Assembly (NCBI GenBank): GCA_017510405.1
Contig: JAFWNG010000015.1
Coordinates: forward strand, 1 to 64,000
From: Solobacterium sp.
GTDB taxonomy: Bacteria > Bacillota_I > Bacilli_A > Erysipelotrichales > Erysipelotrichaceae
DNA length: 64,000 bases
Reading direction: 5' to 3'
In this document: positions 39,902 through 47,199 of the stretch, in pieces
Layout of the letters: each line of letters opens with the position of its first letter
Position numbering within the stretch: position 1 is the stretch's first letter
Program-made: the position numbers and the translations under genes
The notes under the pieces: generated by a model
The model's database searches: none
The model's input: only the letters and a program-made list of their open reading frames with translations
What the model was told of the DNA's origin: nothing

Positions 39902-41341
39902 TTATCCGATCGATTTGATGAAGTGTGTATATGCTCTGTTATTCTGCCATGCGGACAGTGCGCGCACGATCAGTTCGTGGTCTTTTCCTTCGTGGAGACC
40001 GGACACCTGTACGATGTATGTGATCTCCCCGTTTACATACAGCGGGAAAGCACCGCCGCTGACCGCATGCACCCCGTCGTTCAGCCAGTAGTCGTATGTA
40101 CCGTCTTTCACGGTTTTCGCATAGACCCAGGCACTGCTGTGACCGCTGTCCCGGACGCAGGCTTTCTTGCCTTCCGCGTACATGAGATTGGCAGCCTTCT
40201 TGTCGTCCATGACATACTGGAACACCGTCGTGTCGTCGCTGCACCGGGTGATGCGCACGGCAACGCCGCGGTCATATTCTTTTGCCAGAGCCGCAATGGC
40301 ATTGCCAAGCGCCAGTGCGTCCGCGGAAGTGAACGATGCCGGCGCCAGTTCCTCCTCCTGCCTTTCCAGGATCTTCAGATCGCGGTCATCGTAGCGGGCG
40401 ATCTGGCTGAAGATCACATCGGTGATATGCGCTTCCCGAATCATGGCGTCATACGTCATGACATCGCTTTCCTTTCTGCCTTCCTGCAGAAGCGAAACAA
40501 AGTGACGGATCTCGGAATAGAAATCATCTTTATCATACGGGATCGTAAATGTCTCTTCCCCGCTTTGCGTACATACCGTGAATGTAACGGGACGATGCAG
40601 GTCTTTGACGATGATCATCCCCTTCGTACCGGTGAATACGGCATCACGCGGCTCCGTGCGGTCAAATCCGGCGATGATCCGGGCTGTACCGTTGTCAAAG
40701 CGCAGCGTACTGTCTGTGTAGATATCAAAGCCGCGGTAATTCGCATATGTCTGCACCGGTACCGGTTCGCCCTTCAGGAAGTCTTCGGCCAGCGACACGC
40801 AGTAGATGCCGCTGTCAAGAAGCGCCCCGCCGCCTTCCGGTACAGTATGATAGGATTTCCCGTAAGCTTCTTTCGGTACGGTAAAGCACTGGGATGCTCT
40901 GATACTGACAAGTTCGCCGATCACGCCGTCTCTGATCAGCTGTTTCAGCTTCGCGTAGGCAGGCACGAAGCGCGGCTTCATGGCTTCCATGAAGAGCGTA
41001 TCGTTCTCCTTTGCGCAGGCAGCGATCTCCCGCATCTCTGCTTCACTGAGCGAGGCAGGCTTTTCGCACAGCACCGCTTTTTTCTTTTTCAGCGCCTTCA
41101 GTGCCCACTCCCTGTGCAGGACGTGCGGCAGAGAAAGATAGACGGCGTCGATCTGTACGTCGTCCAGCATTTCGTCATAACCGACATAGATCTTTTCACA
41201 CGGATGCTTTGCTGCAAAAGCTTCCAGTTTTTCCCTGCTTCTGCCGCTTACCGCATATAAAACACTGTCCGGATCTTTGGCAAGACTGTCCGCAAAGCGG
41301 TTGGCAATTTTTCCGGCTCCGAGAATTCCCCAGCGTATCAT
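39902..41341 (-). CDS. fusion of Gfo/Idh/MocA oxidoreductase and UPF0303 domain
   Basis: The 479-residue chain has a Gfo/Idh/MocA dehydrogenase at residues 1 to about 325 (nucleotide motif GILGAGKIA at 5-13, catalytic-region EKPAS near 93). A C-terminal domain of about 145 residues matches the UPF0303/HbpS-like pattern (FTSADALALGNAIAALAKEY, and GGAFPLYV). Typical Gfo/Idh proteins end near residue 330-390. The tail domain is usually a separate protein that binds haem or small molecules. It probably oxidises a sugar or cyclitol and is co-transcribed with RpiB. Confidence 0.85.
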   Translation of the reverse strand: MIRWGILGAGKIANRFADSLAKDPDSVLYAVSGRSREKLEAFAAKHPCEKIYVGYDEMLDDVQIDAVYLSLPHVLHREWALKALKKKKAVLCEKPASLSEAEMREIAACAKENDTLFMEAMKPRFVPAYAKLKQLIRDGVIGELVSIRASQCFTVPKEAYGKSYHTVPEGGGALLDSGIYCVSLAEDFLKGEPVPVQTYANYRGFDIYTDSTLRFDNGTARIIAGFDRTEPRDAVFTGTKGMIIVKDLHRPVTFTVCTQSGEETFTIPYDKDDFYSEIRHFVSLLQEGRKESDVMTYDAMIREAHITDVIFSQIARYDDRDLKILERQEEELAPASFTSADALALGNAIAALAKEYDRGVAVRITRCSDDTTVFQYVMDDKKAANLMYAEGKKACVRDSGHSSAWVYAKTVKDGTYDYWLNDGVHAVSGGAFPLYVNGEITYIVQVSGLHEGKDHELIVRALSAWQNNRAYTHFIKSIG

Positions 41342-42594: not shown

Positions 42595-43680
42595 ATGAGA
42601 TTAAGTGCCAGCAGTCTTTCTGTCAATATCTTCGTGACCGTCATGGTGATCGTCATGATCTTTGCCATGCCCGCTCTCGACCGGTATGAATGCAGGAAAA
42701 GAAATATCAACCTTCATGACGCATACAGCACCAATAAGAACACCGACAGGATCCTTGCCCTGCGCCAGGTCATCCTGATCGCTGTATTTGCCATTTATGT
42801 AGCGGAAGTGCTGTATCTGACGCTGTTTTCCCGCGGCGCGTCCGATGACTACCGGATCCATGCGGCGCTGTTCCAGGACCTTGCCAGTTCCTTCCATATC
42901 GATCTGGGTTTCCTGGATTTCTTCCGTCTTCTGTTCAAGGAAGGCTTCTCCTCCGCCGCATCCCACGTCTCGATCGACAAGTATTACAACATCGCTCAGG
43001 TATATCTGAACATCGCGCTGTTCATACCGATGGGCTACCTGCTTCCGTATATCTTCAGATGGTTCCGGGAAAAGGTGCATATCCGTCCGGTGGTCGCCTG
43101 CCTGCTGATTTCCTTCGCAATCGAAAATGTGCAGCTGATCACCAGACGCGGCTTCTATGATCTGGACGACCTTGTTACCAACACGCTGGGCGGTTTCATC
43201 GGCCAGCAGATGTACATCACGGTAGCGTATGTGCTCAGCCATCCGGACTGGCGGAAAGAACTGCGGAAATACAGAAGATGGCGGTGGAACGCGCGCAAAA
43301 GCGTCCTGTTCCCGTTCATGAAAAAGATGAACGTATCCCGGGCAACCATCTATGCCGGAGATGAAACAGCCATCTGGGACTTCTACGTTACCAAGCTCGG
43401 CTTCCGTGTTCGAAGGCAGCTGGTCCCCGAAGACTCCATCTCCACTTCGTTCCTGCTGGAAGTCGGCGGCGAGCAGATCGAGATCATCTGTCTCAATGAA
43501 GAGCGTGATTTCCCCGAACAGCATCTTACCTTCTCCTGCAAAAATCTGAACCGGGTCCGGAAAAGACTGCAGAAGATGGGCATCGACGACGGCGAGTACC
43601 AGAAGGACGCCTACACCGATGTGCGCACGCTGAAATTCAGCGGACCGGACAACGTCGTCATCACCCTGCTGGAACAGTAA
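42595..43680 (+). CDS. fusion of VanZ-like membrane domain and VOC/glyoxalase domain
   Basis: The 361-residue protein has about five hydrophobic segments in a VanZ-like domain (residues 1-220, with VYLNIALFIPMGYLLP and IENVQLITRRGFYDLDDLV), a basic linker (225-245), and a C-terminal VOC/glyoxalase-fold domain (about 246-361: RATIYAGDETAIWDFYVTKLGF). VanZ domains give low-level teicoplanin resistance in one known case. Coupling to a soluble VOC domain is unusual. The start has only a weak AGAAGTTGAG site. Confidence 0.82.
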   Translation: MRLSASSLSVNIFVTVMVIVMIFAMPALDRYECRKRNINLHDAYSTNKNTDRILALRQVILIAVFAIYVAEVLYLTLFSRGASDDYRIHAALFQDLASSFHIDLGFLDFFRLLFKEGFSSAASHVSIDKYYNIAQVYLNIALFIPMGYLLPYIFRWFREKVHIRPVVACLLISFAIENVQLITRRGFYDLDDLVTNTLGGFIGQQMYITVAYVLSHPDWRKELRKYRRWRWNARKSVLFPFMKKMNVSRATIYAGDETAIWDFYVTKLGFRVRRQLVPEDSISTSFLLEVGGEQIEIICLNEERDFPEQHLTFSCKNLNRVRKRLQKMGIDDGEYQKDAYTDVRTLKFSGPDNVVITLLEQ

Positions 43681-43683
43681 AAC

Positions 43684-43713
43684 AGGCAGTTCAACGCGAA
43701 CTGCCTTTCTTTA
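43684..43713 (+). terminator. terminator of VanZ-VOC gene
   Basis: The stem AGGCAGTTC/GAACTGCCT with a 5-base loop is followed by TTCTTT. It may also slow transcription arriving from the convergent TIR operon. Confidence 0.7.
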
Positions 43714-43730: not shown

Positions 43731-45581
43731 TTACTCCGGATTTTTCTGTTTTACGTCGTTCGCTCTGTTCTGATTCCATGTTTCCAGAACATTTGCTGCA
43801 AACCCGTCCAGTTTCTCATTGAGCGGTCGTTCCAGCGCAAAGATCATCTCGTGACGACCGAGATAATGCTGGAGGAAATCCGACAGCACAAGTTCATCGA
43901 TCACCAGCGGCATGAGCACCAGGCCGTCTTTCAGCATCCTTGCGGCGTTTCCGACCTCGTTGTACACTTCTTCGGATTCATTGGACGTTCTCGAGATCAC
44001 GATCACGAAGATCTTTGTCCGCTTGAGTGCTTTCATGATCTCCTGCGGATAGGATCCAGCAATGATATCCCGCTCGTAGTACCATGCCTTCAGACCGCTC
44101 TCTTCCAGCTTTCCGGCAAGATACTCTGCGATCTGCATATCCATGTGATTATGACTCAGGAAGATCAGATCCCGTTCATATTTCTGCGGTACGATGGCAT
44201 CTGCCATACTGCCGGCGTATTTCTCAATGACTTCCGTCAGGGTGATATTGCTTTCTTCCAGTGCCAGTTTATCCTGTTCCAGTTCATATATTCTCTGTTT
44301 CAGCGCACTGATCTCTTCTTCCGGCGAACTTACGGAATAGCCCAGAACTTTCGCAAGCCATCCGGGATATTCAATACTGTCGTCATCGTCGGATAAATAC
44401 TCATCCCATTCCTCAACCGGATCAGACCGATCTTCAATATAGCTGAGTTTATCCTTCAGACTGTCGATCATGACATCCAGCATAGCTGTCATACTGCGCT
44501 TGTTGTCCAGCAGTCCTTCCGGCGCTTCATCTTTCCGCAGGCACAGGCATACGGATGCCGAAGCAAGCACGCAGTCACAGACGACGGTCAGGAAATCACC
44601 GGTAAACGGGAGTGTGAACGCAGCCGGGGCGCGCAGGTAGAATACCAGGCAGAACATGAAGACGCGCATGGCAAACCAGGAAGACGTTCCCAGCGCAAGA
44701 TGCCGGGCGTAGCTGTTCACAGCATAATACGCTGATCTGCGGATCAGCCCGCAGAAGACGGACGCCGCCGCCACTGCCGCTGCCACCGGGATCCATCCGA
44801 GATACAGCGCCGATGCGAGTCCGATATACGCGTAGCCGAGATCTGCATAATAGACATATGCCGGCTGCTCAAAGCGCATCAGCGGCGAAGTGCCGAGCAG
44901 TTTCACAGACTTCAGGATCTCCAGCATGTCTTCGGCATACGGACTGTCGAAACGGTACGATTCGATCCCGCTGATCCTTAACATCCACGGGACCCAGAAC
45001 GGTGCCGCAAGCAGTGCTGCAACGATCAGAACAAAGTACGTCCTGGCCAGTCCTTTCAGCTGTGAATCCACCCTTCCGTCTGTGGAAAGCCGCACCAGAT
45101 ACAGGATCACTGCCAGCCCCATCGGCATCATTGTCAAAGTCGATCCGTTCTCAATGCATGCAATTGCCGGCACAAGCAGAAGAAGGATCAGAGGCCAGAG
45201 CAGATTCCGCATCCGGTAGACCTCATATTTACTGACACAGTATGCCCCGGCAAACCAGATCAGTCCGATCAGCGATATCAGCCGGATATAATAGCCGCCG
45301 ATGACCGCATATGTTCCGCGCAACCGGAAGAATGCCGGGACCAGCAGAAGCGCACCGATCAAAAGCAGATACAGCGGCATGGAGCCCTGTATGATCCGCT
45401 TCAGAGGCATCTTTGCGAACAGCAGCACCGCGCACAGCGCCGCGGCTGCTTCGGCAGTGATCATCATTACCGGTTCCGTGCTCCTGTGCACCGGCAGGAT
45501 CAATGTGAAAAAACCCGCTGCCATTAACAATATCCAGCAGATCACAGACACCAGGATGATTTTCCGGTTCGATTTCTTCAT
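43731..45581 (-). CDS. polytopic SEDS-like membrane protein with C-terminal TIR domain
   Basis: The 616-residue protein has about nine to ten hydrophobic segments (residues 8 to about 350). Their order and the motifs LLVPAIACIENGST, DLGYAYIG and LPFTG recall, in degenerate form, FtsW/RodA-type (SEDS) polymerases. A linker with a coiled coil follows (about 425-460, EEEISALKQRIYELEQ). Residues 471 to about 590 form a TIR domain: FLSHNHMD at its start, ERDIIAGS in the BB-loop region, and a candidate catalytic Glu at 542 (VYNEVGN). TIR domains often cleave NAD+ in immunity. Its operon partners are the unknown and SHOCT proteins upstream, 18 bases away. Confidence 0.8.
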   Translation of the reverse strand: MKKSNRKIILVSVICWILLMAAGFFTLILPVHRSTEPVMMITAEAAAALCAVLLFAKMPLKRIIQGSMPLYLLLIGALLLVPAFFRLRGTYAVIGGYYIRLISLIGLIWFAGAYCVSKYEVYRMRNLLWPLILLLLVPAIACIENGSTLTMMPMGLAVILYLVRLSTDGRVDSQLKGLARTYFVLIVAALLAAPFWVPWMLRISGIESYRFDSPYAEDMLEILKSVKLLGTSPLMRFEQPAYVYYADLGYAYIGLASALYLGWIPVAAAVAAASVFCGLIRRSAYYAVNSYARHLALGTSSWFAMRVFMFCLVFYLRAPAAFTLPFTGDFLTVVCDCVLASASVCLCLRKDEAPEGLLDNKRSMTAMLDVMIDSLKDKLSYIEDRSDPVEEWDEYLSDDDDSIEYPGWLAKVLGYSVSSPEEEISALKQRIYELEQDKLALEESNITLTEVIEKYAGSMADAIVPQKYERDLIFLSHNHMDMQIAEYLAGKLEESGLKAWYYERDIIAGSYPQEIMKALKRTKIFVIVISRTSNESEEVYNEVGNAARMLKDGLVLMPLVIDELVLSDFLQHYLGRHEMIFALERPLNEKLDGFAANVLETWNQNRANDVKQKNPE

Positions 45582-45599
45582 TGCGTTCCTTTCCGCTGT

Positions 45600-46253
45600 T
45601 TATGATTCCCGCGGCGTGATATGCCACAGTTCGCCGTTCTTACGGCGTACGATATCCCCCGCTTTTCTCTCTGTGATATCACCGGTATGAAGATCCCGGA
45701 TGATCGTTTCTTCCCGGTAATCCGGATCTTCTTCCCAGCTGGAAAGATACAGACGGTCCTCATCCCGCATATAGAAGGATTCATGGAGACCGATATGGAT
45801 CCGGCGGTCTTCCGGCCACAGAAGATGCAGTACATCATTTTTCTGGCGGGACAGTGTCAGCGGCTCTGTGAACAGACGCAGGTTGCAGCAGTCTTCCGCT
45901 TTTCCCAGACCGATCATATCGATCTCACGGACCTTGTCCGGAACGACGGGATCCCATGCCAGGATCGAGATCGTCCGGGTCACAAAATCCACTGCCGGAA
46001 CATACAGCTTTCTCCAGCTGTATACCGGTTCTCCTAATGCTGTCCGCTCTTTCTTTTCGATCGGAGAAAACGTCTTTCCGTCGCGTCCTCGTACAAATAC
46101 CAGCGTATCGCCGGGATACGGTCTGCCGCTGTTTTCGATCTCTTCAGCATCGTACAGATCCCCGTACGGCTCATTCAGCGAATAATACCACCTGCCGAAG
46201 CTTTCCCGCACTTCATTCATGGCTGTATTGCCATGCAGCACGATCTTCTTCAT
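45600..46253 (-). CDS. 217-residue protein of unknown function
   Basis: This soluble, mostly beta-type protein is rich in short strands and turns (GDTLVFVRGRDGKTF, GLHESFYMRDEDRLY) and ends in HITPRES. I cannot place it in a family. It has no signal peptide or membrane segment. Its start overlaps the stop of the SHOCT-domain gene by 4 bases and its stop lies 18 bases from the TIR gene, so the three are almost certainly one operon. Confidence 0.75.
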   Translation of the reverse strand: MKKIVLHGNTAMNEVRESFGRWYYSLNEPYGDLYDAEEIENSGRPYPGDTLVFVRGRDGKTFSPIEKKERTALGEPVYSWRKLYVPAVDFVTRTISILAWDPVVPDKVREIDMIGLGKAEDCCNLRLFTEPLTLSRQKNDVLHLLWPEDRRIHIGLHESFYMRDEDRLYLSSWEEDPDYREETIIRDLHTGDITERKAGDIVRRKNGELWHITPRES

Positions 46254-47047
46254 TCTTTACCGCCGAGCAGCTGCTTCTTTAGCATCTCGTATTCGCTCTC
46301 ACTGATCGCACCTTCGTCCAGAAGGTCTTTCAGTTCGCGCAGCTGGGCAAGCAGATCGGAGCGGGAAGCAGAAGAAGCCTCCGCCCTTTTATTCACATTG
46401 ACCGGCACATCGATGTACTCCGGTTCCCTGCCCATATCTTCGTATACGACGCGTCCCCATGTGCTTTCCGGGATCTCCCGCGGCTTTTCTCCGCTGTCGA
46501 TATACATGCCGTCCCCATAATCCGCGTCAAGATTCAGCGTGATATTGTTGCGGATGCGCGCGTCGATGCCCGCTGTGCACGGGAATGAGATCGTCACATG
46601 TTCGTCGGTGAACAGATCCCGCAGACGCATATACGCTGTGACCGGAATCTCCTGTGTTTCGATATGCGAACGGGTATGTCCGCGCGTATCCGACACCTCG
46701 CGTCTTCCGGTTCCGACAGCCGCGCCGATGATCGTTCCGACGCCGGGCATCAGGATCGTTCCGATGAGCGCGCCGGCAAGACGTCCCTTGCGCTTTCCCC
46801 GTGTCTCGGTATTGGATACCTGGTCATGGACCACAACGTCCTGATAGCGCGGTCCGTCCCACTGGTATTCCAGGACTTCATATTCTCTCGAATGGCGGCG
46901 GTCAAACCACACGATCCCCGGTATTCCCTCACCATAGTACATCGTGACGGAACCGGACCTGCGGTCGGTTACGATATCCTGCCATCCGTTCACTCCGGAC
47001 AGTTCCACTGACTGTACCGGATCATTAAAACTCTGTAAGAATGACAT
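46250..47047 (-). CDS. SHOCT-domain protein with glycine-zipper segment
   Basis: The 265-residue protein has an N-terminal beta-rich region (1-85), a glycine-zipper hydrophobic stretch at about 92-115 (ALIGTILMPGVGTIIGAAVG), a second soluble region, and a C-terminal SHOCT motif (last 35 residues: LAQLRELKDLLDEGAISESE). SHOCT segments are thought to promote oligomerisation. The ATG at 47047 has AGGAGG upstream. It leads the operon with the unknown protein and the SEDS-TIR protein, and could be the sensor or assembly part of that system; this is an inference. Confidence 0.8.
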   Translation of the reverse strand: MSFLQSFNDPVQSVELSGVNGWQDIVTDRRSGSVTMYYGEGIPGIVWFDRRHSREYEVLEYQWDGPRYQDVVVHDQVSNTETRGKRKGRLAGALIGTILMPGVGTIIGAAVGTGRREVSDTRGHTRSHIETQEIPVTAYMRLRDLFTDEHVTISFPCTAGIDARIRNNITLNLDADYGDGMYIDSGEKPREIPESTWGRVVYEDMGREPEYIDVPVNVNKRAEASSASRSDLLAQLRELKDLLDEGAISESEYEMLKKQLLGGKE

Positions 47048-47199
47048 ACAGTCCTCCTGTTTCCTCATCCCTCATTATACGGCAAAACACTGCAAATCCT
47101 GAACCGGGATGCGAAACACCGCGATAATGCGCAAAATGAAAGCCGCATTCCGGACAAAGACTCGGATATGCGGCAGTATAAAACGTTTTCTGATATTGG

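Follow-up and report, generated by a model that had tools for sequence, protein, structure and literature searches.

A three-gene locus of Solobacterium encoding a SHOCT protein, a predicted beta-propeller and a putative TIR effector joined to a SEDS-like membrane part

The stretch of DNA analysed here (64,000 nt of a Solobacterium sp. contig, hereafter the window) comes from a gut-type Erysipelotrichaceae genome and carries three tightly packed genes on the minus strand, encoding, in operon order, a SHOCT protein, a small predicted beta-propeller and a protein in which a SEDS-like membrane part precedes a TIR domain (Table 1). The first two genes overlap by 4 nt (ATGA), and an 18-nt gap separates the second from the third, the reading frame being identical on both sides. 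The original prediction had described a three-gene operon whose upstream genes overlap or abut, and all the ORFs were found at their places on the minus strand. A promoter scan upstream of the operon did not find a full sigma-70 site; of such a site, only a TATAAT was seen (about 47074-47079), and it lacks a good -35. The operon is flanked upstream by an MFS transporter/GH1 pair and downstream by converging VanZ-glyoxalase and VanY genes. The former of these (42595-43680, plus strand) is a single ORF with an unusual fusion, of a VanZ-like membrane domain and a glyoxalase-type one. At 39902-41341 (minus strand) a GFO/IDH/MocA oxidoreductase is fused to an HbpS-like domain, and relatives of this protein, many of them full-length, were present in 31 of the 70 genus genomes.

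Table 1. Features of the locus (positions in the window; residues are those of the encoding gene's product).
Feature	Position	Strand	Description
SHOCT/glycine-zipper gene	46250..47047	-	265 aa, operon gene 1; GGAGG precedes the start at 47047
Glycine-zipper segment	46709..46786	-	Residues 88-113, hydrophobic; Pfam models below cut-offs
SHOCT domain	46265..46348	-	Residues 234-261; Pfam E=2.6e-8, above cut-off
Small beta-propeller gene (predicted fold)	45600..46253	-	217 aa, operon gene 2; no Pfam family
In-frame TAA	45600..45602	-	Sole stop between propeller and SEDS-TIR in a shared 840-codon frame
Shine-Dalgarno-like GGAAAGGAA	45586..45594	-	Precedes the SEDS-TIR ATG; no counterpart at the matching place in G043
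Pseudo-SEDS/TIR gene	43731..45581	-	616 aa, operon gene 3
SEDS-like membrane part	44538..45560	-	Residues 8-348, about 10 TM helices; hhalign, hydropathy
Large outside loop	44847..44978	-	Residues 202-245, matches SEDS ECL4/PL4; catalytic Asp lost
Acidic linker and helical segment	44178..44537	-	Residues 349-468, probably coiled-coil; sequence, helices in a low-confidence model
TIR_2 domain	43770..44177	-	Residues 469-604; Pfam match, TIR-APAZ alignment
E542 codon, putative catalytic Glu	43956..43958	-	Aligned with TIR-APAZ E77; kept in G043
Terminator-like hairpin, bidirectional	43684..43706	.	Separates the operon from the converging VanZ gene; consensus match only

A second full copy of the trio was found in G043 (Solobacterium sp. 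RGIG7085, from sheep rumen), the only other species in which it was found. In this case, the propeller, the SEDS-like part and the TIR domain are one protein of 794 aa, adjoining the SHOCT gene, and the locus is flanked by the same neighbours as in the window. The trio was present in 2 of the 70 genus genomes searched, both of them draft assemblies, and beyond these two it was not found in the 273 family, 316 order, 395 class and 392 phylum genomes searched, nor among the roughly 85,000 species covered by a pattern scan. A contig scan with the single window protein as query gave no match, and with the two-sequence alignment as query it gave the G043 contig only. Plasmids, phages and viral contigs searched for the trio gave no match, and in ten other genus genomes, in which the surroundings of the GFO-HbpS marker gene were examined, the trio was not beside this gene (contig edges cut off several of these stretches). 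Conservation of the trio, which had been proposed as a check, was observed as this recurrence, and we considered the three genes as an operon-like unit beyond chance, because all of them are found again at the corresponding locus of another species.

The fused gene of G043 raises the alternative that in the window a gene of the 794-aa type is decaying or was mis-sequenced, in which case the TAA would be either a nonsense mutation or an assembly error. The propeller and SEDS-TIR genes lie in one frame with a single stop, homology is recognisable over the junction and the assembly is a draft, as would be expected in such a case. However, the Shine-Dalgarno-like GGAAAGGAA is properly spaced before the ATG and absent in G043, and the 840 codons contain no further stop or frameshift; we consider this alternative very unlikely.

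Compared with most of the neighbouring genes, the trio locus is diverging very fast. Between the window and G043, the GH1, LysR-type regulator and MFS neighbours are 95%, 87% and 85% identical, respectively, whereas identity is 65-69% for the SHOCT protein, 55% for the propeller, 54% for the TIR domain and 28% for the membrane part. Strong as it is, this contrast is not confined to the trio, because the NUDIX, zinc protein and GFO neighbours are also 56-66% identical. Such rapid divergence would be compatible with a conflict sensor, or with relaxed constraint.

As for the first gene, we read its glycine zipper as an insertion, because the homologue at locus L030 lacks it in the family alignment. 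The glycine-zipper/SHOCT family was present in 11 of the 70 genus genomes, mostly as lone genes, and some of its members carry an extra zinc ribbon. A PDB profile search with the SHOCT family gave no useful match.

The second gene had been described as encoding a protein of unknown fold, a description that we revise. No Pfam match was obtained for the 217-aa protein; its AlphaFold2 model (built with 15 sequences) had a mean pLDDT of 94.6, and comparison of the model with solved structures (Foldseek, VIA-align, Z up to 10.4) returned mostly beta-propellers, of many families. The protein is accordingly predicted to be a beta-propeller, which in G043 is fused to SEDS-TIR. It is probably cytoplasmic, because no signal peptide was seen by eye. 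Fifteen other genomes of the genus contain relatives, the majority of them lone genes at unrelated positions.

For the membrane part of the third gene, Pfam PF01098 (SEDS) matched neither the window protein (E<=1) nor the G043 relative (E<=10). The own genome has two true SEDS proteins. We compared by hhalign a query profile of two sequences with a reference profile of 30 FtsW/RodA proteins, taken from relatives as well as from the own genome, and the two were co-linear over 284 columns with a score of 42.5 (P=9e-5). The controls scored lower, precisely 19.8 for the reversed sequence, at most 24.5 for 40 block shuffles, 16.4 for MFS and, at best, 30.3 for 150 permutations of the order of the TM units. 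With six random subsets of SEDS proteins, five scores were between 36 and 44 and one was weak (30.0). The window protein and its G043 relative took the top ranks among 27 polytopic ORFs compared with the SEDS profile. Hydropathy of both proteins gave the SEDS layout, with 10 TM helices and, after TM7 and ahead of TM8, the longest outside loop. The distribution of positive charges favours an inside position of the even loops; by the positive-inside rule, both the N and C termini of the membrane part are probably inside. The assignment of the SEDS fold relies on the profile comparison, because the AlphaFold2 model of the 616-aa protein (two sequences) had a pLDDT of only 43.6, and this model was not used in the fold search.

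Two other parents of the membrane part were considered and rejected. O-antigen ligase/Wzy gave a local score of 30.4 over 61 columns and a global score of 8.9, versus 32.7 for SEDS. L019, a variant SEDS protein of the own genome, resembles the window protein by eye in ECL4 and had a profile score of only 15-16. L019 (G000:C19 14999-16114; also in G043:C48 and G067:C18) is a divergent SEDS protein whose gene adjoins a penicillin-binding-protein-like gene in the own genome, and proteins of this type occur alongside canonical FtsW/RodA in a few genus genomes.

Functional residues of RodA include D262, E114 and K117 (PMC10449877). Both the catalytic Asp (the position of RodA D262) and the QPSE/K site are absent from the window protein and from its G043 relative, in which 8 and 9, respectively, of 31 SEDS-conserved columns are kept. 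We consider the membrane part as a degenerate SEDS-like module, not a polymerase, because the catalytic Asp, QPSE/K and most of the conserved columns are lost. This agrees with the original prediction of a degenerate FtsW/RodA-like polytopic part, given a profile score above the controls and a topology of the SEDS type.

The same losses would suit a different explanation, in which the membrane part is a mere anchor, sensing being done by the propeller or the SHOCT protein, and its SEDS descent is functionless, relaxed constraint having led to the 28% identity. Nearly all the SEDS functional residues are lost, no region is less conserved than the membrane part, and in other TIR proteins of the bacterial family the anchors are simple TM segments accompanied by extra domains. 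Nevertheless, both proteins retain the ten-TM layout and the large loop, and the loop region (202-245) is 38% identical between them versus 27% for the helices; a pure anchor is in our judgement improbable.

The TIR domain had been proposed to carry a catalytic Glu, and it bears this out: Pfam TIR_2 (PF13676) matched residues 473-564 with E=1.4e-14 (55 bits versus a cut-off of 28). In an alignment with TIR-APAZ, for which a profile was built from the window protein and the G043 relative, E542 was in register with E77, in the alpha-C position of the TIR catalytic Glu; in TIR-APAZ, E77A is a catalytic mutant (PMC10474274). The best PADLOC match of the SEDS-TIR protein was the SAVED-TIR model (E=1.3e-9), via the TIR domain only. 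Of the ThsB-specific models, PF08937 scored 20 bits on the G043 relative, versus a cut-off of 21.2, and a search with PADLOC gave 22.6 bits for its ThsB model. We read the TIR domain as a putative NAD+-consuming effector (hydrolase or cyclase) that is membrane-anchored.

Another TIR protein is encoded at L057 (G000:C2:4666-5736; also L055 and L056). It is 356 aa long, with a C-terminal TIR_2 (E=4e-21) and a weak ThsA-macro match in its N-terminal part; in both the own genome and G043 the adjoining gene encodes an RpiR-type regulator, but in G025 a TPR-type protein. These loci could be a separate TIR system.

Taken together, the three genes may encode a membrane-anchored TIR enzyme complex with a pseudo-SEDS core, propeller and SHOCT partners and an immune or abortive role, a tentative reading to which we would give slightly less than an even chance. 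In such a complex, the pseudo-SEDS domain, its polymerase active site lost, would hold the TIR domain in the cytoplasm via the helical linker, and a cytoplasmic propeller (separate in the window, an N-terminal fusion in G043) and a membrane-associated glycine-zipper/SHOCT protein would complete it. Sensing of an envelope change or an invader component would fall to the membrane part, perhaps aided by the propeller and the SHOCT partner; the TIR domains would then cluster and, once clustered, would cleave NAD+ or produce an ADP-ribose signal, leading to a growth stop (abortive defence). We infer the position of TIR and propeller inside the cell (by the positive-inside rule), the physical complex, the enzymatic activity, the trigger and the immune role. 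The part given to the propeller and the SHOCT protein rests on adjacency and one fusion, because both families mostly occur alone. No typical defence island surrounds the trio: PADLOC matches among 10 neighbours were limited to NUDIX (PDC-S07) and, weakly, to radical-SAM-type (pVip) models. The functional reading of the original prediction, a role in phage defence or in the sensing of envelope damage, is plausible as a hypothesis.

The same complex might instead be a housekeeping envelope regulator, with lipid II or proteins of wall synthesis as ligands of the pseudo-SEDS domain; the TIR domain would then serve as a scaffold, or give a metabolism-tuning signal under envelope stress. The chromosomal locus is fixed in two species without mobile-element context, and the lone relatives of the propeller and of the SHOCT protein are ordinary chromosomal genes, which both favour such a regulator. 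VanY and VanZ genes are also nearby in the window, but they are away from the trio in G043. Moreover, occurrence in just 2 of 70 genus genomes would be odd for a housekeeping function, the TIR domain and the membrane part diverge fast, and the catalytic Glu is kept in both proteins. We regard a housekeeping regulator as rather unlikely.

A more specific form of the immune complex would make a dead wall polymerase an innate-immune receptor. Precisely, the pseudo-SEDS domain would read lipid II, a wall-synthesis partner or a wall-attacking phage protein and would fire the TIR NADase of the same chain, the propeller and the SHOCT protein being regulators. This form is speculative and, we think, unlikely. 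If it were true, a TIR enzyme built onto an inactive cell-wall polymerase would couple envelope state to self-destruction in a new manner, and SEDS folds would be able to act as receptors.

In the open-access literature searched, no paper combined TIR domain, FtsW and SEDS, and the papers on TIR domain and RodA dealt, in the parts available, with other subjects; the SEDS-TIR architecture is without a described counterpart in the searched papers. Compared with SEDS proteins (FtsW/RodA/SpoVE), the window protein shares about 10 TM helices, the largest outside loop at the ECL4 position and the 284-column co-linear match, but it lacks a Pfam match, RodA D262, the QPSE/K site and an adjoining class B PBP gene, and it has a TIR domain.

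Soluble sensors (for example Argonaute, STING and domains that bind phage proteins) are known from bacterial TIR effectors. The effectors TIR-APAZ (SPARTA) and Thoeris ThsB have, like the window protein, a TIR domain in which the catalytic Glu is aligned. Unlike SPARTA, the window operon has no Argonaute. A Thoeris system is improbable, since a search for a ThsA-type STALD domain gave no score above the cut-off, the best match in this genome (96.6% complete) being 11 bits versus a cut-off of 24. SpbK is a Bacillus TIR NADase of abortive infection (PMC12847820). It resembles the window protein as a Gram-positive TIR protein with the non-TIR part N-terminal and the TIR domain C-terminal, and the PADLOC spbK model matched the window protein weakly (13 bits). 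To our knowledge, SpbK has neither a SEDS-like polytopic part nor operon partners of the window type. In the same bacterial family, the loci L007-L016 and L068-L081 encode many TIR proteins with an N-terminal TIR domain, TM segment(s) and large C-terminal domains, which in several of them are, by eye, repetitive and propeller-like. The L007-L016 proteins differ from the window set in that the TIR domain is N-terminal, the TM segments are simple and the repetitive domain follows the membrane, and no match was seen between this domain and the window propeller; they resemble it in having a TIR domain, membrane segment(s) and, by eye, a propeller-like repetitive domain on one chain.
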